Source: Sialis fuliginosa | Lineage: Eukaryota > Arthropoda > Insecta > Megaloptera > Sialidae | Reading direction: 5' to 3' | DNA length: 64,000 nucleotides | NCBI GenBank assembly: GCA_961205875.1 | Contig: OY540814.1 | Location: 14,366,993-14,430,992, forward strand | In this document: one piece after another, positions 6,360-63,650 of the stretch | Position numbering within the stretch: the stretch's first letter is position 1 | Layout of the letters: each line of letters begins with the position of its first letter | Notes under the pieces: model-generated | The model's input: only the letters and a program-made list of their open reading frames with translations | What the model was told of the DNA's origin: nothing | Database searches by the model: none | Translations under genes and position numbers: made by a program

Positions 6360-7098
6360 CTAGATGTGCCCGCGCGGCTTCGCCCGCGTGGTCAACGGAA
6401 TTGTTTAGGATTTTTGAAAAATATAGAATTAAGTACAAACTAAATTAGGTACATAAAAAAACGAATCAGAACAAAAATTACAAATAATTTTTGTTCTGTT
6501 ACAAATAATTACAAATAATTTTTGTTCTGTTTAAATTTAAAAGTTAATAATTGAAAACAAAATAAACAACTATGAGCCGAGCGCAGAATATTTCCCTCTG
6601 CCTCGTGGAACTTCATCACAGTTCGCGGGAATTGCCGCGAATAATATGTTACTGTATGTATATTTCAAGTTATTTCCTAAACCAATAGACCAAATTGAAT
6701 GCTGTAAAGGGCAAATAATATCTACATTAAGTACTTATATGACGATAAAATCATTTATTTTGATACGGATTAATGTTTTGCAGGTCATAAGCCCACGTAA
6801 ACAGAACCCAAATATTTTAATTTTCTTTGTAACATAAAAGCAGTCACTGTGACTTAAATATAAAAGTTAGACGTATGATGTCACGGCCTTAATTTTAGAT
6901 ATTTTTATCCTACACAATTCTTTAACACATTATTTTATTCAATATTGAACGGTTTAGGCAGCGTACTGCAAAAGAGCGCGCTGGCGGCAATCTTTTTTCC
7001 GACTTGATTTACTATTATCGTCACTGCTTAGTTGGTATGTTATCTAACGTAACAAAATATAGCTTTTAACCTGACCAGAGAACGTACCTATGAATTAA
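6360..7098 (+). mobile_element. Retroelement-like family, copy with 5' head
   Basis: Starts with CTAGATGTGCCCGCGCGGCT and continues to CGCCCGCGTGG, the typical head of a very common insect repeat. From about 6545 to 6890 it parallels 63125-63485 (shared blocks ATTGAAAACAAAATAAACAA, ATGCTGTAAA, GATACGGATTAATGTTTTGC, CGTAAACAGAACC, CATAAAAGCAGTCA). The stretch near 6995-7060 matches the reverse complement of 56255-56325 (GACTTGATTTACTATTATCG). It ends at AGAGAACGTACCTATGAATT, after which only the 63-kb copy continues into the tail. A 63-codon open frame at 6646 is broken in the other copy, so it is not coding. The copy includes a local duplication of ACAAATAATTTTTGTTCTGT near 6480-6530. Confidence 0.7.
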
Positions 7099-8564: not shown

Positions 8565-10100
8565 ATTTGTGGAACATTTGTGTGTATTATCAACATCGCC
8601 GTTGCGTGAGTTATTAAAAAATGTTTTCATCATTTATAATGTTTTTATTAACAGCATCGAGTCATGTTGGACAACAGTACTTATAGCTTTGTAAAAATAC
8701 ATCTCTTAAAGCCATGCTTCGAATAACGTGGCTTTAACAATCCCATTTTCCACTAATCTCTGATGTTGCAGCGTTTGCTTCGAAATTACATCTTTTTAGC
8801 AGCATGAATCTGATACCCTCCAGGCTTAAAACTTAATAATATTGCTTCTACTGACAAACATTTTTTGCTTCTACAATGTAATTTTTTGACATACAAATTC
8901 GTCTTCCCCTGCAATAATAGGTGGTAACCTCAGGAGCACAAATGCAACAAAATATGTCACACTTTAAAAACTTGTATCTCCAAAACAATAAATAAAACGA
9001 CAAAAGATTATATAGTTCCATTAATAATAAATGAGTTTTAACCCTCCATCCCTCAACCCTTACGTACAGTAGCACGGGATTTTTTTACATACAGCCAACC
9101 TAATTATTTAATAAAAATGTACTGGAAAAACGGAGAAACTGTGTTTTCTTAAACTATTATTATTATATTGGTTTAAGTGTATATTTTTAGTTTAAGTAAT
9201 GAAAATGTGATAAAAATTTCAGCAAAGTTGCTACTGCGCCCTTAAGTATTATTTTTTTAATCTATGTATACGTCGTTTTATCCTTCTTAATAGATTTAAA
9301 TTTTTATCCCCTACTACCTAACAGATTTTGATGAAACTTTCAATATAAGAAAACCTATGACTCTAGAATTCTTTAAAGCTAAATAATGATGAGTATTAAA
9401 TATTATAACAAGCCCGTATTAAATAAAATTTACAATTGAATTAGTCGCTCAGGCGCGTATTAAGACAGAATTAATTTAAATAAATTTTAACTTTTAAGTT
9501 TGTCCAGCCCTGACTATGAACTCATAAATGTGGACATAGGCTATGTGCGCTCTCTACAGCTATAATTCAACTAAAGCACTGTCCCAGAGCGCTCACATAG
9601 TCCTCTCACAGGTGTAGTAAGGACACATACGCTACACTGTCGTTTTTGTCACTATTATAACATATGCATATACACTATACAGTTATACATACATACATAA
9701 ATACGTATGCAACTACGGAACATCGGTAAATCAATATTATTTTCTGATACACGCAAATATTTGCTCTGTTGTTAATATTACAACAATCTAGGTCCAAATT
9801 TACCATTATTTTTAATTATAAAATTTAAAAAAGGTTTTAACAATGCTGCAAAACAATCCAATAATATAACAGAATAAAGATAATAATATTTTTGTAAATA
9901 CTTGCAAATTAATTATAAATGATTTGATTAACGAGTAATAACGAATTGTTAGTACATAATAAATGAAGTCAGATAAAAATAGAATATAGAGTTTTTTTAT
10001 TTTATTTTAGAATCCCATCAAACGGATTATATTATTAGTTACTTCTTTTACTAGTCTAGGTAGTATAAAAAAAATAGTGTATAACATATGTTTATATTAA
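8565..10100. other. Non-coding DNA with an imperfect hairpin near 9.5 kb
   Basis: No gene is supported. Around 9535-9605, AGGCTATGTGCGCTCT and AGAGCGCTCACATAGTCCT form an imperfect inverted repeat with a loop of about 45 bases, in a locally G+C-richer patch. A short ATAC-type microsatellite lies near 9688. Confidence 0.4.
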
Positions 10101-10105
10101 TCATA

Positions 10106-10135
10106 CGTATGGTGTATGTATACATACACCATACG
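10106..10135. repeat. Perfect 30-bp palindrome
   Basis: Two uninterrupted 15-base arms, CGTATGGTGTATGTA and its exact reverse complement, meet with no spacer. The arms are not simple AT repeats, so chance occurrence is unlikely in 64 kb. It could extrude as a cruciform or bind a dimeric factor. Confidence 0.9.
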
Positions 10136-10139
10136 AAAG

Positions 10140-13100
10140 AAAGAAATAAACATAAAAACTACAAATATAATGCCCGGTATTATAAACAAGATAACACAAA
10201 TTTCTTAGCTAACAAACACTTTCAATAGTGTATAAACTCTGTGATATTCTCTATTAAATGGTTTTGAAATTTATCTTACAATTAGTGGAACTTCAACTTA
10301 CTATAATTTACCCTAAGATAATTTTCAAACACCTATACCACCACTGTTTTAATACCGTTTGTGCTTACTAACCACGCGCGCGCAAAACTGTCAAACACTT
10401 CAAGGGGACTATCAGATAAAAGTTTAATACCCCCATTTGAAAGTGCTAGTAAGGTAACAAATTTTGTTAGGTATTTCTTTTATAATAAGGGGCATAAGTT
10501 TTGATACACTGTTAATATTTATTTAATTTTAAATACCTACATAAATAAAATTATAAAAATATCTACGTGCATTTCTTTATGTCAAAGGCGGGGGGGGGGG
10601 GGACATTTAAGTAATTATTTGTTTATATTCATAACTTAAAATTATCTACCATCTTTACTTGAGCTTTTAGAAATAAAAAATACATGAAAGAATTAAATAA
10701 TATACTATAACCCTCTCATTCTAAAGTTTTTGTAAATAGTGAACGGACTTTGTAATTGATCTGTATGTAGGATTACGTTTTCACAAAGTTCTATACTCAT
10801 TGATTAGTTATTATTAGAGGCAGGTTGTTTTTTATTTACTATCTAATTATAAGCCGATTACTTCCTGTATAAATAACATTTCTTCTGACGAAGGTACGCG
10901 TATGTTCAGTAATTCTTTATTTATTTATGTATTGTTCTTTCGTTACTATACGTTAATACGTTAATGAAAAAAGTTTTTGTGTTAGTAAAAAATAGATTGC
11001 TATTTTTCTGCGGATGTATCTATTCCAATTGTAATTTCAATGTAACTACAACAATAATTAAATTTATTGTCACGTAGCAAAATATATTAAAGCATAAACT
11101 AATGATCTATTGTTTCAATTTTACCTACTTCTATTAGTTACAACTTATTTTCACATAATTATATTTTACGTGTCAATTATAGAATATGAATATAATATTG
11201 GCTGTAAAAGACCTAGATAAACAGTTTTAAGGAGATTGTGTAGTTTTCTTATTTTTAAATAAGTATCAACGATTCTTAGAAATCAGTCCTGGTTTGAAAG
11301 GGCTGATTGTTCGAGCGAAGCGAAAAGTAGTTCCCTCTCTTCTAAGGACTATAAAAATTAATTTTGAGCCCCGTAAATTTTTAAACTAATTAATATATGT
11401 AGTTTAACTGGTTCAATTACATTATGTAAAATTGCCTACCGATTCCGGATAAAGAATTTTTACGAAAAGTTAATTAGTTAAAGTTATGATTAGCTGAAAT
11501 AAAAAAATGTATAACACAATAAAAAAGTTTTTTCTATATACACAAGTGGGGTATAAAAAATTCGCGTTTTGTTGAACTGATTTCAAAAATAATTATACTT
11601 TTAAAAGATCATTTACAAGTGGCAAGTGGTAGAAACTGTAAAGTTTTTGAAGAAATTACTTATACACTTGTAACTTCGAAGCTAATTGATGATAAAAATT
11701 GTGAGTATAAAGAAAATATATGTGATTCCAGGAAAAGTATTATAGTTTTATTCACTTGCAAATTGTGTACAATATAATACACCTTGCTGACTTTTTTAAT
11801 ATTGACATACAAAAAGATATTTCTAGAAGCATATATTCCACGAAGAATGCTCTTGTTTAAGATTTTACGTCATGTAAACAGTATTGTTATAGTAAAAAAA
11901 CAATAGGAGAACAATTTACAAATAAAGTTTTTCTTCTACGATAAATATATTTACCTTATTGTGTTGAAGCTATAAAACATATTTTAGTTGTTAAATTGTG
12001 CAGTGAAAGATTACAAAAAAGATGTTCTACGTCATTATTTTTTAATTAAAACATTCTGTTGTTTTTTTTTTTGTATACGTGAAACGTACAGTATCGTAAA
12101 ATATGTTTTTTATGAATATTTTCTTTTGTGATAATATTTGTTTTATTTTTAACATATGAATTGTTGTGACAGTATTTATATTTTTTTCGAAAATAGGATA
12201 CCGCAGTCTTTTTTTTAGTTTGTACAATAATTTATAAATCCTAGAATTTAAAAAATAGGTAAACAAACATTAAATAGAAACTTAAGATATCCACTGCAAT
12301 ATGCGATGAAACAACACAGTTTACACCCAGAAACCAAAATTTATCTCAAGCTCACCGCGAAAGTAGTATAACGTTAATCACTTTGTCATGTGAATAAATC
12401 AATTTATAAAAACAGATATTAGAATATGTAAAAAAAAGTGTACAAGCTAGGTAGTAGAAAACCTTTCTATAAAATTGAAAATGGCTTTATCTACTTGAAG
12501 TAGTCACAGAATCTGTCTGATTTCTTAAGAGAATAACCACAAAAAATATAGAGTTTCTTCATTCAGGTGAAACCGTGCACTCCTCTTTTGTTCGGAAGAT
12601 TTTTTTTTGCAATTAACTTTCATACTCTAAACTAATATAGTAAGTTGGATTTTCTTTGTAATCTTCTTATGAAATTCTATTGATTAAAGTTTTATTAAAT
12701 ATTTTTAAATATATTTATAAAAGTCAGAAAAATTTACGAAATTCAGAAATAATTCTTACTTTTTGACTGATACGGACAAAAAATAATTTTTGCTCATTTT
12801 TCTTTCAATTTTACAGCAAAAATAGTTGTATATAAAATTAAAGTTTATTGAATACAAACAAATAATATTGAGTATATAGATATACATATCTTTTGTCAGT
12901 TTCGTACTTCACAAAATAATGACAAACTTGAAAGAATATTTCAACGAAAAGACAATAATTTTAATAAATTCAGACTACCATTATTTGGTAAACACGAATC
13001 TGATTTATTTAACTTTAATTTTTATATGTACCTAACTATTTTTACCAAAAATAGACATTGCTGGAGGAGGGAAACTTCATGCTTTCTTAGTGACACTATA

Positions 13101-14035: not shown

Positions 14036-14037
14036 AG

Positions 14038-14498
14038 TAAGGTACTTGCACCAGTTATGGCCGCTATAAGAGCAAGGTTTACTGTTTTTTGTGATTGACG
14101 GGCTTATTTTTTGTAATTCTCATAAACTAATGTTACTAATAAAACAAGTAACTCTTTATTTTATCTATTTAATTAACAAAGTCCGCAAATAAAGTTTTTT
14201 TTTTAATTATATCCTTTTGTTTTTTTCTCCAGTAATGGATAAAGTAAAACTAGTAATGAGCATGCAGTGACGAACACTTGCTAATGATTACAAAATGATA
14301 AGTACTACGACACAAAATATATAAAAGAAAGAATCGTCAAGTTTGAAACATTGTAAAACAGTTGCTATGATAATACATATAATAATTAATAAATAAATTA
14401 TATTAATAATTAGTTTAAATGTCCACCATTTTGACACCTTTTGGCCGAAAGTCATCAAATCACGCTGTAAGACAGTTTAAAATGTACATACATTAATA
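14038..14498 (+). mobile_element. MITE family shared with 27.1 kb, copy 1
   Basis: Begins TAAGGTACTTGCACCAGTTA, then runs parallel to the reverse complement of 27095-27565: TGGCCGCTATAAGAGCAAG, TTTTTTGTAATTCTCAT, ACAAGTAACTCTTTATTT, CCAGTAATGG, GATAAGTACTACGACA, AGAAAGAATCGTCAA and GTTGCTATGATAATA all recur in order. Near the right end it carries about 40 extra bases and loses the terminal block seen in the other copy. No coding capacity, so a non-autonomous DNA element. Confidence 0.75.
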
Positions 14499-21897: not shown

Positions 21898-22540
21898 CCA
21901 AAGTGACTAATTATACCGTATTTAATTGTTATAGATCAATGGTTCTCAAATGGGCGTGCATTAAATTTAATTTTTTTTTTAAATGTCATAGAAAAAATAT
22001 AGTCGCTTGCAGAAATGGTCGACCAGTTTTCATTCAAATTCGCTTATCAAAAACTTAGTAGGCTCCTCTCATTTGATTATTATAATATTTAAATAATTTC
22101 TCCATCTACCAAAAAAAGACAAATATTTTGATACTCATTTGCTATATAAAGAAGTACTCTTCGCTTATAGTACTCATATATCTATTGAAAATTATACAGG
22201 TAAATTTTATGGCAATAAATATTTGATATTCCGAATTTTAGTATTTAATTATGTTAAACTTGATATAAAATTAATTAATGAAATGGACGTATATTTGTGT
22301 GTTTATTTAAAATAATGTGAGTATATAACCTTCCCACTAAAAAAATATAACCGATGCTGTTTGTCTTAATATTTTTGAATCTGTTTTAAGCAATTATGGT
22401 CTTTAGTACTCATCATTATAGCCATAGTACTCAACCTAATTATTCAATATAAACTATATTTATTATTTTGTGATATAAACTACGTATTAGAAAATATCAA
22501 TTGTTTTCCTTAACCATTTATTTAATTCCGGATCATCCCA

Positions 22541-27094: not shown

Positions 27095-27565
27095 AAGGTA
27101 GTGGCACCAATCTTGGTAAGAACCCCAGTAATGGCAAATTATTAATTAAATATATTTACATTTAACTGCCTTACAGCACGATTTGATGACAATCGGCCAA
27201 TATAATTTATTTATTAATTATTATATATATTATCATAGCAACTGCTTTACATTGTCTCAAATTTGACGATTCTTTCATTTATATCTTTTATGTCGTAGTA
27301 CTTATCATTTTTTAATCATTAGCAAGTATCCATCACTGCGTGCTCACTACTGGTTTTACCTTTGCCATTACTGGATAAAAAACGTAAACAAAATAAAAGG
27401 CTACAATTTAAAAAACAAACTATATTTGCAGACTTTGGTAATTAAATTGATTAAATAAAGAGTTACTTGTTTTATTAGTAACATGAGTTCATGAGAATTA
27501 CAAAAAACAATCCCATTAAACCAAAAAAACTTGCTCTTATAGCGGCCATAACTGGTGCCTACCTT
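27095..27565 (-). mobile_element. MITE family shared with 14.0 kb, copy 2
   Basis: A more complete copy in the opposite orientation. Ends are related inverted repeats: AAGGTAGTGGCACCAATCTT on the left and the reverse complement of AAGGTAGGCACCAGTTATGG on the right, each preceded by T, so a TA target duplication is possible. About 471 bp, non-coding. It defines both termini of the family. Confidence 0.78.
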
Positions 27566-27569
27566 ACCT

Positions 27570-42404: not shown

Positions 42405-44485
42405 ATAAACTTAAATAAAAATACAATAATGTGATTATATTCTTTCATAAAAGATATATATAGTATGAATATGTATAAATGTAGATTTGTTTCAAATAAT
42501 TAGACAGGCGTTATTCTGCGTATAAAAAGTTCCGTGGCATTTTTTTTACTCTGCCTATGTATTCAAATTAATAAATATAAAAAAATTAAAACAATTTCTT
42601 AAGAAAAACATTCCCTCGGCATAATGAACATTTTTAAATAAGGAATTGATTCAACATGACATTTCAAAATTCTTTACAAATTGGTTGGAAAAAAAGCACT
42701 AAAATGTAATCTTTTCATTTAACTCACATTTTTATGATCATATGAGAAAATAATATGATATTTACGAAATAACCTTCAAAACATTGGCTCTCTAAACAAT
42801 ACTAAAAAAATATTTAAAAGTCAATGTATTTTCATCCTCTTGTGACATTTTCAAGGAAAAAATAAATAAAATAAAAATAAAGTTTCACTAAAGGTTTATC
42901 ATTGACATTTCTATCAAGGTTATATAATGTTTATATGCAATGTTACCAGATGCGTATTCTTTAAAACGAGGATGAGGTGTATATATTAATTAGTTTAATT
43001 GAATTTCAAAAATTGAAACATAAAAAAAAATTGCAAAAAATCCTTGATGTGCGCCTGATGCATTACATTGTAGACATAAGCATGAAGAAAGCTTTATGCG
43101 ATGCTTTCAAATTACACTAACAGATGGTGCAGTTTAGTAAACAGTGCTTGAGAAAATAAATACTACGCTAGTTCAAGAGTACACAATCCAGTTATAAATA
43201 ACTTTTGTGAATTTTACGACAAGATTAAAGCGTATAATGCAATTAACGAGATTTTGCAAGATTTAAGGCTTTTGCGATGATCTTAAACTTACATAGAATA
43301 TATAGGACAAAATTGGCATAGTACATTGAAATTATAAATCAGACAAAATTTAGAATTGTCTTAAAATATTTGTTATATCTAGTTTTAGGTATTAAAATAT
43401 GAAATCGATTCTTTAAGAGGCAAGCGGTGAGTGGGGATCGATTATATTAAAGCATACACTTACCAAATGTTCAGAAGAAATTATTTTGTATTCAAATAAT
43501 AGTTTGGCCTATTAAATCTTGTATAAAAAGGATTATTTTACGTATCAAAACGTATCATAATTAATATTTTTGAAACGAGACCTTTATCTATCCATCCTGT
43601 ATAATAGTAGAAGTATTTTAAAATATTATAAAGTAACAAAAGGTTAATTACTTGAAACATTACAATCTTCAGCATTATTTATTTAAATGACAAATGCATA
43701 AATAAAACCAATTAATACATTGTCAACTTCCTCTGGAAAAGGAACTACGTCAAATATACAAGAAACTTTTACCCAACAAAATAATGAGGATTGCCAATAC
43801 ACCGCTTACATTTTGTAAAATTCACAATGTGAATATACTAGATTGAATTCTAGTGCAAGTTTGATAAAATGTTTTATAAGATTTAACTTTTAATATAGTT
43901 TGTAAACTAGAAGGCTGCGGTAGATATACCTATACATGTATGTGTACATTAGGGGAGGGAGGGGGATTATGAATTACTGACTCTTGAGTAGATAAACTTG
44001 TATAGTTATATGAGAATAGTTAGAAACTTCTTGTTTTGTATAAAGTAGTTTAAAATATATCTTCTGGTATCATACATATATTAATATTTATGTGCGAGTA
44101 ACCGCGCCGAATTCCGGGGGTGGATAACCGCCTAGACTTCGCCCCCATATAAATCTACACTTTCTATTTTCTATTAAATGAAATAAAACATATTATGTAA
44201 CAATTCAAAAAGTTTCATTTTAACTAATGTTTTTGTTAATTACGTACTGTTTATTATTAAATACTTCATGATGCTCAGTTTTGAACCTGAATGTTTATGC
44301 TACCTAAAAATTTGCAGCAAACCCCATTCTACAAGAAACAACTGGCTATAAAACAAAATTAAATGAATTTATTGATGTAAAAAAAAATGATGATACTACC
44401 CTGGATTAATCCATGGTTATAAATACCTCCCTGGATAAATTAAAAGCCGTCATAAATTTCGGAACGGTGTTAAATGGGGTATGTA
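42405..44485. other. AT-rich non-coding DNA
   Basis: No gene. Around 44100-44150 a G+C-rich patch (CGCGCCGAATTCCGGGGGTG, CTAGACTTCGCCCCC) looks like a decayed repeat head. Confidence 0.45.
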
Positions 44486-44490
44486 ATATA

Positions 44491-46003
44491 CAGGTTGGGG
44501 CAATAGTGTGTGGTAGTTCGATAGCTCGTAGACCATAACAGATAAAAAAAAATTTCTAATGCAGATGTAAACTGTGGGTAAATGTGCATACATAGAAATT
44601 ATTTTCAAATATACAGGGTGCTACAAAAAAGTGTGGCACGCTTAAGGTAATTTTTTTTAAATGGAATGCCCTGATTATTTTTGCATATTTAAAACTTCTT
44701 TTGGGATGTTTATTCATATCAAAAATATTAGCCCCATCTGATGTCCAGTTTAGACGTAATAATATATTTTTCAAAAAAATTGACTTTTACATTACTCCAC
44801 TTAAAAATTCACCACTTCCGCGGCCGCAGCTTTGAAGACGAAATTAAATATGGACCTTATTGTAGGATGTTGGTGAGTACTTTTGCTTCAATATCTTAGA
44901 GCCACCATGTACAGGGTGTTCAAAATTAATTTTCAAGTTTTGAGAACTTCAAAGTTATTTTTCTCAACTATTTCAAATGGAACACCCTATATATTTTTTA
45001 ATGATGTTATGTAGAATTACATAACGAACATTTTCTGTTTGTTCATCCTTATGGTTATTTGTAACCATTTTTGAATTATTGAGCAAAAAGTACAAAATTC
45101 AGCAATATTTACTAAAAAAAAATATTTTTTTTCAAATAAAATAAAATACCATGTACAGTATGTTCATGTTGCCCATAAAAACAGCTTGAATTTTTTTCAG
45201 CTAGCAAACAGATGCTTTATTATTTTATTGAACACAAACAACCAAAATAATTTACAATCATATAAATTCATTAATGAGCAGTGTGAAATTGAGACAGAAA
45301 CATAAAATGCTGTTTTATGGGCAACATGAAGATCCTGTACATGGTGTTTTATTTTATTTGAAAAAAAATTAATTTTTTTTAGTAAATATTGCTGAATTTT
45401 GTACTTTTTGCTCAATAATTCAAAAATGGTTACAAATAACCATAAGGATGAACAAACAAAAAATGTTCGTTATGTAATTCTACATAACATCATTAAAAAA
45501 TATATAGGGTGTTCCATTTGAAATAGTTGAGAAAAATAACTTTGAAGTTCTCAAAATTTGAAAATTAATTTTGAACACCCTGTACATGGTGGCTCTAAGA
45601 TATTAAAGCAAAAGTACCCACCAACCTCCTACAATAAGGTCCATATTTAATTTCGTCTTCAAAGCTACGGCCGCGGAAGTGGTGAATTTTTAAGTGGAGT
45701 AATGTAAAAGTCAATTTTTTTGAAAAATATATTATTACGTCTGAACCGGACATCAGATGGGGCTAATATTTTTGATATGAATAAACATCCCAAGAGATGT
45801 TTTAAATATGCAAAAATAATCAGGGCATTCCATTTAAAACAAATTACCTTAAGCGTGCCACACTTTTTTGTAGCACCCTGTATATTTGAAAATAATTTCT
45901 ATGTATGCGCATTTACCCACAGTTTACATCTGCATTAGAAATTTTTTTTTATCTGTTATGGTCTACGAGCTATCGAACTTCCACACACTATTGCCCCACC
46001 CTG
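44491..46003. mobile_element. 1.5-kb palindromic element with two 695-bp arms
   Basis: The left arm 44491-45185 and right arm 45309-46003 are near-identical inverted copies around a 123-bp spacer. Terminal bases CAGGTTGGGGCAATAGTGTG and the reverse complement of CACACTATTGCCCCACCCTG are flanked by TA (TATA) on both sides, consistent with a TA-target DNA transposon. Differences between arms are scattered single substitutions. Inside each arm are further transposon-like end motifs (ACAGGGTGCTACAAAAAAG; GTACAGGGTGTTCAAAATT; ACACCCTATA), suggesting nested origin before the arms were duplicated. Matching 72-codon open frames (44556-44774 minus, 45720-45938 plus) are mirror copies, not independent genes. 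No transposase is encoded. Confidence 0.9.
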
Positions 46004-46005
46004 TA

Positions 46006-48655
46006 TAATCTAATTTTACGTATTAAAATTTTTAATTATTTTGAGTAATTGTTTAATTACAGCACAAATACAATGGATTTTGCATTTTTCTTTGCTTAAG
46101 GAAATGATAATTGAAAATATGCTGATCAAAATTTATAATGGGTAGAACCTACGAGAACCCATCATTTGCGCTTCAATGAGTACCGAAATAATTATTTATT
46201 TCTATTATTATCTCTCTTTCTCTACAGAAATAACTTTTAAAAAAAAGTTCAAAGAATAAAAAGTATTTAAAATCAGCCAAGGAATACAAATAAATATTGT
46301 TTATAATTTTTCATAACATTATTTATTTATTTTTTAAATATCGAACCAAAAAACTAAAAAAAATTAATTTTTATTTTATTTTATCCTTTAGTACATAAAG
46401 ATCATATTTTAAAAAATTATTTTGATATAAAAAAACAAGGAAGTACTAATCAAATGAACAATTCTAAGCCCAAAATGTCTGTTAAAAACGTATATATCAA
46501 AATTAATAATACAACAGAATTACTTAGGAGACAAATCCTTTAACGAATTGTGACGAAGATTCATCCTAGTTAAATATTACCTTGAAGGACAGTATAATCT
46601 CTTAATATGTTCGTTCACAGTCCTGTTGGTTATTTAGCCTTGAACTTTATGGGGGACTTTACAAATCGAACTCTTAAACGTGGTTCATTGTTTTCTGCTT
46701 TATTAAATATTTATTACCGGATTTTTTATTTATGCAGTTTCAGACAATTTTTATTCTAATTATAGGTATCTCAAATTCTACGTATTTCGAGACTATATGT
46801 AGTTTTAATATTTTAGTAAAATCTGGTTACTAAACAAAAATTTTATCGAAATACGTCGCATAAACTTAATCGATTTATAAATTACGTACTGTACTAGATG
46901 GATGTCGGAATGTCACCAATTCAATTGTTTCATACATAGTTTTCATTTATCTCAAGATCTTTTGCTAACGTATCACATGTTATTTATAATTTTTTTACCG
47001 ATTTTGTCTCGTTTTATTATTGCATGATAATTTTATCCAAATTGGTTCAGTATTTTCTTAAATTAACGTGAACAATCAAACATTTTTCTCCTTTTCATAT
47101 TAGTTTTTGATATTTATTGGTTTCAGTTTATTAAGTTTTTTTTTAATTTTGGCTGATTTAAAACTACTGACAATAAGTAAGAAAGTGTTTTTTAGTTTTT
47201 CTGTAAGTTAATTAGTAATATACTGCTTGTTTTGTGTAGTTCTTTAGTAGTCTTCTGGACGATTTTTCAAAAAATAAAATATTTAACATCTCATTTATTC
47301 TCTATATAATTCAATAAATTGGTAAACATTTTTGCGAAACTTTTACGAAAGAAAATTTATAATTCAAATAGATATAAGAATGTTTTTTATATTATTTATA
47401 AGAAAGTACCTCTTCTGCAAAGGTTTTGTTCGGGATTTGTTTGTTTTTAATTCTTTCAGACCCAAACATACCTAAATAAATAACAAAGTTCAGGTAAATA
47501 AAAAACATATGTATAATATACATACACAAAAAAGAAGTAAAATGTTTTATGTATGGTTTGTATGCATCTGTAAATAGAGAGACAATTCTTTATCTGAATT
47601 ATTTATTTATGCTTAATATAAGTGAAAAAAAGGTAGATGATCCTAAATCATTTACTCGTAACTTTTTTTAAACATATATGTACATTAAATAAATCAATTA
47701 TAGTAATAAGTAGTGATAAAATCGAACTCGAAATTTTAACGCAACTACACGTTTTGAGGATCCCTAAATTACATACGACCATTAATTCAATCACGTCTGT
47801 ATGTCTGTCTGTGAACGCTCTACAGCCAAAACGTTGACTTACAAACATGATTTTAAAAGGAAGATTCTTGTATGTATACTATAAATGTATGTACATCTCC
47901 TATTTTTGAAGAGCACTACTGAACCAGAAACTCTTGTAAATTTCATTGAAACGATGCATGATAGTAAAGAATGTTTTGATTCAAAGTTATAGATAGTATT
48001 TGTATCTATAATTTATGTTTTATTCATATTTTTAAAAATATGTATCTACCTTCTGTATGAACTCAATTAATTAAACAATGGTATATTTATTAATTATACC
48101 TATCATATTAATTTTTATGTTTTATAAAAAAATTATCAATTACTTATGAAAATAAAAACAACAGTAGAAAATGTTCTTTCTAAAAGTTTTTCAAATAATT
48201 CAGTCTAAAGAAACTTGTCTTGATTTTTCTCTACAACTTATTTTCTGTATAGTCCCTCCTAGCGGTTCTTTGTGTAATCTACTACTACGATATTATAAAA
48301 AATAAATCACAAACTTCTTACTCATATCTCAGGTTTCATTATACAAAACTTTTACATATGTATATACAACGTACATGCATATGTTATACTAGATTCTAGC
48401 TAGATGAACTACCCTAGGGCTTATTGTAATAGTTTAAGAACTTTAATTTTCAATTTTATTTATATTAATTAAACACAAATCTGTTTTAATATAAAATAAT
48501 TTAATTTAATCATAGCTTTTCATTATTTTTCGTAATATTATACGTAATTTTCAATTTGATATAAAAATATTATTTGTAAAACTTCATCCAAATTTATTAC
48601 ATTACCTCACTGGGAGTTAATATCGGTAGATACATATGTAGATATAGTTATCTAT
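46006..48655. other. AT-rich non-coding DNA
   Basis: No gene. At 47735-47870 the order GAGGATCCC, TCACGTCTGTATGTCTGTC, TGTGAACGCTCTACAGCCAA and ACTTACAAACATGATTTTAA recalls the 'tctgtctgtcc...aaaacg' core of a common insect repeat; paired open frames on both strands there are coincidental. Confidence 0.45.
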
Positions 48656-49482: not shown

Positions 49483-49846
49483 ATTCGAGGAATAAAGATT
49501 CTTATACTGTATATAGTACATACTGAGAGTTTCAGTTATTATATATAATAACTCCCTCACTTATTGAATTTGGAGACTGCTGGTATAGGTAATCTTATTA
49601 AACACCACTTGGAACTGAGTTTATATAACTCTATTGGTATAAGAATTCAATTACCCTAGTAAAGTAAGATATTCTTGCAAGCCTTTATATTCGCAAATAA
49701 ACACAATTAGCTGCTGCACATGAAAGAGGCTATTGCACTGGGTGTAAAGCACGAGTGATAATCAAGTTTGAGTACCTCTGAGCACAATATTAGCACTTGT
49801 AATTGGATATCATCTATTCGCTGGTATACATGTATACATACATATA

Positions 49847-50090
49847 TTAGGGTGTGTCAAAAAAAAGCTTTTTTTTTGCTCTCATTACAAAATAAGTTAG
49901 TTTATGACCTAAAATAAATAATTATATGAATTATTTCCATATGTTATTTAAATGGGAAACGGGACCTCTCCTTTTGCGGCAACTCTTAATATTGAACTAC
50001 AGGGTAATCCTTCAGCGAGGATTTATTTGAGGTCATAAACTAACTTATTTCGTAACGAAAGCAAATGTTAATTTTTTTGACGCACCCAAT
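49847..50090. mobile_element. 244-bp MITE with ~60-bp inverted ends
   Basis: Left end TTAGGGTGTGTCAAAAAAAA and right end, reversed, ATTGGGTGCGTCAAAAAAAT. Both arms share TACAAAATAAGTTAGTTTAT / TACGAAATAAGTTAGTTTAT and GACCT. The flanks are TA-rich, so a TA target is likely. The GGGTG.GTCAAAAAAA end is widespread in insects. Confidence 0.8.
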
Positions 50091-50387
50091 ATGTATGTAT
50101 GTAATAATGTATAAACTATTATTCTGTATTGAATATTCATTGATCTGCGGGCTATCTGTGACCTGCATTAAAAATAAATGACCTAGCTATAACTTATATT
50201 CAGTATAAGTTTTTGGTTTAATTATACGAACATCACAACTGTCCTTATAATTTTTATACATTGTTGTTAAAAGAATTCAGCATTACAAATTGTAGGTTTA
50301 ATTACATTATAACATAATTTCCCCTTCATTACCTTTTCCATTTTTATAAATTTCTGTAGAAAATATGAATTGTTAATTTTTTCTTAA

Positions 50388-63032: not shown

Positions 63033-63650
63033 ATTGAAAAATATAGTTGAATTAAGTAGGCACAAACACGATTAGTTATTATTGTTATAATAACTTATCA
63101 ATTGTTTTTCTTAAATTTCAAAGCTAATTATTGAAAACAAAATAAACAATTAACGATCAAGAAAGTCCAAATGCCAGGGTAGCCGAACGTATGGCATACG
63201 CTCCCCTCTATTCAAACGACTGCGGACGCCAAGACACGGCTTTTCAATGATATTACGGTAACATATTATTTATTTCATGTTATTTGCTAAACTATAAGAC
63301 CAAACTGGATGCTGTAAAAGGCAAATTATATAACCATTAAGTACTTATGACAATATCATTTATTTTGATAAGGATTAATGTTTTACAGGTCATAAGTCCA
63401 CGTAAACAGAACCAAAATATTTTTAATTTTCTTTGTAACATAAAAGCAGTCATTGTGGCTTAAATATAAAAGTTAGACATATGGTGTCGCTTTATTTTAG
63501 ATCTTTTGATTTTACATAATTATTTTTTAGAGAACGTACCTATGAATTAAAAATACAATACGTAAATCGGATAAGTGGTTCTCGAGTGATAAGCGCACTA
63601 ACGGACAGACAGACAGAGAGACGTTGAGCTTTATATATTATATAGATATA
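63033..63650 (+). mobile_element. Retroelement-like family, tail-bearing copy
   Basis: Parallels 6410-7098 from TTGAAAAATATAG through AACGTACCTATGAATTAAAA, then continues into AATCGGATAAGTGGTTCTCG, AGTGATAAGCGCACTAACGG and ACAGACAGACAGAGAGACGT, ending TATATTATATAGAT. The head is replaced or lost. G+C-rich insertion-like differences occur at 63165-63245. Comparison with the 6-kb copy shows no conserved open frame. Confidence 0.7.

Follow-up and report, generated by a model that had tools for sequence, protein, structure and literature searches.

The palindrome at positions 44491-46003 of the Sialis fuliginosa DNA analysed here (the window, 64,000 nucleotides) is one of a family of dispersed copies, and we read it as a foldback-type, non-coding cut-and-paste DNA transposon that is moved by the transposase of another element. 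The best explanation, and one that we hold to be highly probable, is a foldback transposon moved in trans whose palindrome symmetry is renewed by gene conversion between its arms. The data described below show that the copies are dispersed and have their ends in common, that an empty site exists, that a young group goes back to one master copy, that the arms have been homogenised across the family and that one copy carries a conversion tract.

Structure of the palindrome

Self-alignment of the window confirmed the two near-identical 695-bp inverted arms and the 123-bp spacer that the sequence-only reading had described. The left arm (44491-45185, forward strand) and the right arm (45309-46003, reverse strand, the reverse complement of the left) differ by 18 mismatches over 694 aligned positions plus 2 gap columns, and the spacer between them (45186-45308) falls outside the arm alignment. 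The outer end of the left arm is CAGGTTGGGGCAATAGTG in the window copy, the commonest form in the family being CAGGGTGGGGCAATAGTG. A gapless scan of the palindrome gave 97% complementarity over 660 nt, and in the self-BLAST of the window, which is AT-rich (28% GC), the palindrome scored E = 0, far beyond chance. The mirror symmetry extends 4 bp beyond the arms, to TATA at 44487-44490 on the left and at 46004-46007 on the right, so that the TA flanks reported earlier are present as part of a longer TATA on each side; from the flanks of 40 copies and the empty sites of one of them (L134), these flanks are best read as a 4-bp target-site duplication. Folded as single-stranded RNA, positions 44515-45979 of the palindrome are predicted to form one long hairpin with an MFE of -1072.5 kcal/mol, and with this predicted folding a transcript might be able to feed the Dicer-2/endo-siRNA pathway, as had been proposed.

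No evident gene was found in the element. There are 13 stop-to-stop frames of at least 90 aa in the window, one of which (90 aa) overlaps the element; a Pfam search with ten of the frames lying outside the element returned nothing above cut-off, the single match in the ten frames scoring below its cut-off. No tRNA was found in the window. In the viral collection there was no exact match to the end pattern or to an internal module pattern, and a looser end pattern matched 13 viral records. The 14-base end pattern matched at least 120 stretches in the prokaryote collection; BLAST of the element against 120 of these loci gave a best E of 0.027, and they were therefore taken as chance matches.

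A dispersed family in the genome

The window's own assembly (392,097,322 bases in 20 contigs) was searched with the 1521-bp element as query, and the 80 resulting rows correspond to 40 places, each matched on both strands. The family thus has at least 40 copies on 13 contigs, a lower bound because 40 were scored out of 635 first-look candidates. Those scored are the ones most similar to the window copy and form a biased sample, within which identity to the window copy is 96-100%. The arms make up nearly the whole element, and 39 of the 40 scored copies match it at full length, from query position 1 or 3 to 1521, the remaining one being truncated at 1464. Including both TATAs, the length is 1519-1524 bp in 37 of the 40. 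TATA stands on both sides of 38 copies, the exceptions being L159, which has TCTA on its left, and L160, which has no right end. An exact match to the commonest 22-base end stands at both ends of 27/40 copies and at one end or both of 39/40. The flanks mostly differ between copies, with a few copies sharing repeats (L127/L147/L152 and L139/L156). The search for other copies with the same ends, whose absence had been named as grounds for abandoning the sequence-only reading, therefore returned at least 40, and these dispersed copies with the predicted ends support the classification as a non-autonomous transposable element.

Target sites and the proposed transposase acting in trans

The clearest view of the target comes from L134, which is inserted in a repeat that has three empty paralogs, at 22216-22331 of the window and in the flanks of L130 and L135. 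The empty paralogs carry four bases at the site (TATG at 22216-22331 of the window, TATA in the other two), and L134 itself has TATA on either side of the element, so the duplication in L134 is 4 bp. L139 and L156, which lie in a TA run of another repeat, fit a 2-bp duplication (one paralog compared), a reading weakened by the fact that TA runs readily change length. We favour TATA as the target duplication; TA is possible. Three copies share one insertion point close to the end of a repeat, which lies in the right flank of L127, the right flank of L147 and the left flank of L152 (element orientation). The common arrangement is TCTACTA-TATA-element-TATA-ACGAAGTG or ATGAAGTG, and the opposite flanks differ, which suggests a favoured target. 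The repeat end beside these three copies presumably resembles a Helitron 5' end.

With regard to the transposase, a genome search for DDE_3 (PF13358) yielded matches of which 150 were scored out of 454 candidates, many of them in stop-free frames of 344-381 codons. Judged from these frames, the genome is rich in open Tc1/mariner-type transposase genes, none of which was linked to the element's ends. The ends look to us like mariner ends, which we take as a lead only. Most likely, the transposase acting in trans is of the Tc1/mariner kind, a class assignment that we infer. Tc1/mariner elements duplicate TA, and a 4-bp duplication would be unusual for them. It is a real possibility, if a somewhat doubtful one, that the mover is a transposase with a 4-bp target outside Tc1/mariner and that the mariner-like ends arose by chance: the cleanest empty site is one of 4 bp, with all three paralogs concurring on the length, and TATA flanks both sides of nearly every scored copy (38/40). 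Against this stand the fit of L139 and L156 to 2 bp and the abundance of open DDE_3 frames in the genome, even with none tied to the element's ends.

A young group founded by a master copy

Thirteen copies, the window copy among them, lie 0.26-1.33% from their own majority. Within this young group, 15 sites distinguish the two arms in 7 or more of the 13 copies; 8 sites do so in every one of the 13, 6 of them with the same two bases throughout. Since these arm differences are common to the young copies, they must have been present already in the founding master, and the high arm identity of the window copy was therefore inherited and not restored in place. The arms of the group have hardly been homogenised since the group arose, so conversion does not explain the arm identity of the window copy. 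The selection of the 40 copies favoured those resembling the window copy, and for this reason we cannot claim that its group is the youngest in the genome. The sequence-only reading had offered recent origin or gene conversion between the arms as the source of the preserved symmetry, and both have a part, at different levels: recent origin applies to the window copy, which sits in a young group whose arm differences come from one master, and gene conversion applies to the family as a whole, in which one arm has been homogenised with the other.

Arm-to-arm homogenisation across the family

Simple divergence since the palindrome arose predicts that the two arms of a copy lie roughly as far apart as the most distant copies do, and that the left arms form one lineage and the right arms another. 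The data fit neither prediction. The distance between a copy's own arms is 0.14-3.47% with a median of 2.46% (39 copies), against a copy-to-copy distance with a median of 3.54% and a maximum of 5.72% (39 copies). All 39 of the 39 copies have an own arm-arm distance below the copy-to-copy median, and 11 of the 39 have arms that resemble each other more closely than they resemble any other copy, whichever way the arms are paired. In a tree of the 78 arms, the arms of one copy are sister tips in 12 of 39 cases, with supports of 0.56-1.00, two of them below 0.8. Both arms of the member copies also cluster in several small groups (e.g., L137/L149, L143/L152, L138/L144, and L139/L141), and those of L142, L145, and L151 scatter, grouping with arms of other copies. 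Forcing the 39 left arms into one clade cost 431.7 log-likelihood units (p-AU 8e-20), and a history of one left and one right arm lineage is rejected by this test. The test relies on the asymmetry of the copies to orient them, and a first tree was already known when it was run. Copy orientation has no bearing on the results for sister arms and for distances. The truncated L160 was left out of the arm tree, the clade test and the distances, and kept in the counts of arm differences and private changes. Private changes with the same base in both arms number 31, versus 0.23 expected under independent mutation, beside 145 private changes in a single arm (40 copies).

The clearest single event was found in L136. 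In comparison to its kin L125 and L140, L136 carries the other arm's base on both arms at arm sites 210, 259, 261, 265, 270, and 295, and the flanking sites 168 and 341 still differ between its arms, which shows a conversion tract of at least 86 bp. Site 291, inside the tract, differs between the arms of L136, and we read this as a later mutation because the change is present in neither L125 nor L140.

Renewal of the symmetry could in principle also come about by re-forming the whole palindrome from one arm, through snap-back or template-switch replication at the birth of a copy group. Near-identical arms are expected soon after such an event, and they are found in L148 (1 difference in 692), L133 (3 in 690), and L135 (3 in 692). 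We nevertheless think re-formation improbable, because the L136 tract is partial, with still-differing sites on both sides of it, and because the narrow length range of the copies (37 of 40) indicates a centre without the gain or loss that rebuilding would leave there. It is considerably more improbable still that the hairpin is kept by selection for pairing, each change in one arm being matched later by a separate mutation in the other, with a functional RNA such as a small-RNA source as the product. The 31 private changes identical in both arms would fit this, as would the single long hairpin predicted for the RNA, but the six informative sites of L136 shifted together to the other arm's bases within 86 bases, the 145 single-arm changes remain, and the window holds no Rfam match at the gathering score, the two matches in 44400-46100 being sub-threshold with E near 1. 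Inverted-duplication artefacts of assembly do exist as a matter of general knowledge, but an artefact here (from a folded read, or from a join that created an inverted duplication) has a negligible chance of being the explanation, since the assembly contains the structure at 39 other places, the ends and build agree at all 40, and the copies of the young group even have arm differences in common.

End-like motifs within the arms

A scan of the left arm with the 14-base end motif (up to 4 mismatches) found 7 instances in both orientations, the end itself included, compared with a mean of 0.55 and a maximum of 3 in 500 mononucleotide shuffles. On the forward strand, the motif TATACAGGGTGCTA lies at 44610-44623 and, together with an inverted instance with 4 mismatches at 44664-44677 (reverse strand), bounds a module of about 68 bp. 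A second module of about 86 bp is bounded by TGTACAGGGTGTTC at 44908-44921 (forward strand, 1 mismatch) and an inverted instance at 44980-44993 (reverse strand, 1 mismatch). The remaining two are a weak one at 45144-45157 (reverse strand, 4 mismatches) and one at 45152-45165 (forward strand, 3 mismatches). These internal motifs may be extra transposase binding sites or remnants of nested small elements. As to the origin of the modules, a comparison with the window and with the sequence flanking the 40 copies gave just weak A+T-rich matches (best E 1.6e-4), a literature search found no paper for an internal motif, and TRF listed no tandem array in the element.

Other palindromes and repeats

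Other palindromes and repeats were observed in the window and elsewhere in the genome. A second, more diverged palindrome of 289 bp (71% self-identity) lies at 49825-50113 of the window, with ends like TTAGGGTGTGTCAAAAAAA; it looks like a Tc1/mariner-type MITE. A 68-bp palindrome (82%) is found at 10087-10154, and two pairs of window repeats have about 85% identity (14037-14404 with 27199-27567, and 6661-6923 with 63271-63525). The repeat in which L139 is inserted forms a palindrome of its own, 1155 bp long, 86% self-complementary and with the end TATACCGGGTGTTCC, when read on the flanks joined at the insertion (the last 84 bases of the left flank plus positions 1-1067 of the right flank, in element orientation). 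This type of repeat, seen at L156 too, constitutes a second long-palindrome family. In addition, DDE_3 fragments occur as inverted pairs at five loci (G000 C1:33318931/33319495, C4:20906011/20906582, C4:30373109/30373632, C1:29146618/29147094, and C2:17151172/17152634), their starts lying about 0.5 kb apart in four and 1.5 kb apart in one; their arrangement would suggest palindromes built from pieces of transposons, with part of the transposase gene retained.

Comparison with known elements

The palindrome belongs to a known kind of element, and its closest precedent is the two-TIR elements of Galileo. Galileo (P superfamily, Drosophila mojavensis; PMC3573991) likewise has non-coding copies that consist almost entirely of long TIRs; these are 18-1250 bp long with a mean of 668 bp, two-TIR copies average 1.7-2.2 kb, and the TIRs within a copy are 98-100% identical. 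The rarity that had been claimed for arms this long is accordingly weaker than stated, given Galileo TIRs with that mean and reaching about 1.25 kb (PMC3573991). The same paper describes subfamilies that arose from bursts, a proposed repair of one TIR from another, and internal repeats proposed as extra transposase binding sites (PMC3573991). Galileo copies, however, are bounded by 7-bp sequences (PMC3573991), and the palindrome by TATA, with a duplication of 4 bp or 2 bp; the copies of the palindrome thus lack the 7-bp target duplication of Galileo and the P superfamily.

Long TIRs are also found in the TA-inserting superfamily, and the LTIR group of rosa-like mariners (DD40D/DD41D, aphids), with TIRs of about 460 bp (PMC5490172), offers a comparison for the 695-bp arms. 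LTIR elements encode a transposase, whereas in the palindrome no gene was found, and their two ends listed in Table 1 of that paper are, judged by eye, unlike the palindrome's end (PMC5490172). Foldback elements such as Tetris of Drosophila virilis share with the palindrome a non-autonomous nature, long inverted arms, and an autonomous partner that was not found (PMC4079207); Tetris has tandem repeats of about 220 bp in its TIRs and duplications of 8-10 bp, whereas TRF gave no array for the palindrome. MITEs resemble the palindrome in their terminal inverted repeats, a short TA-rich duplication and many near-identical copies. At about 1513 bp, the palindrome exceeds the usual MITE limit of <600 bp quoted in PMC3573991. 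In Wolbachia insertion sequences, the two inverted ends of a single element similarly recombine with each other, but that case is bacterial and the abstract of PMC3004938 reports inversions and not arm conversion.

Less usual here is how much evidence for homogenised arms the copies provide. The best-known examples of gene conversion between arms are the large palindromes of sex chromosomes. A limited literature search on arm conversion and transposons brought up sex-chromosome palindromes, TE papers and PMC3004938, with no case among them that we recognised as comparable.

Discussion

We propose that an element of about 1513 bp, CAGG...CCTG, without an evident gene and duplicating TATA (possibly TA) on insertion, is mobilised in trans by a transposase whose gene lies elsewhere, with Tc1/mariner as the most likely class. 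Masters with slightly different arms would have founded separate copy groups, and the group that includes the window copy is young. Gene conversion has copied one arm onto the other during the family's history and within at least one individual copy, and by this copying the palindrome would renew its symmetry. The conversion intermediate may have been an extruded cruciform, or the conversion may have taken place during repair after excision.

A more far-reaching version, which we regard as unlikely, is that of a self-correcting transposon, in which each arm is a template for its partner, the hairpin or cruciform formed during movement is where conversion occurs, and a burst can start from a freshly symmetrical master. 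If this were true, selection would act on symmetry itself, and the internal motifs would serve as reserve binding sites for the transposase; the other long palindrome, the one with a TATACNGGGTG-type end, and the inverted pairs of transposase fragments would then be products of the same process.

Under gene conversion between the arms of a foldback transposon moved in trans, the explanation that we prefer, the finding bears on how such elements are dated: because the arms are more alike than the copies of the family, the identity of the arms should not be taken as a measure of an element's age. The family may also be a source of long double-stranded RNA. With dozens of replicate palindromes of traceable relatedness, it would also make the rate, tract length and timing of conversion measurable.
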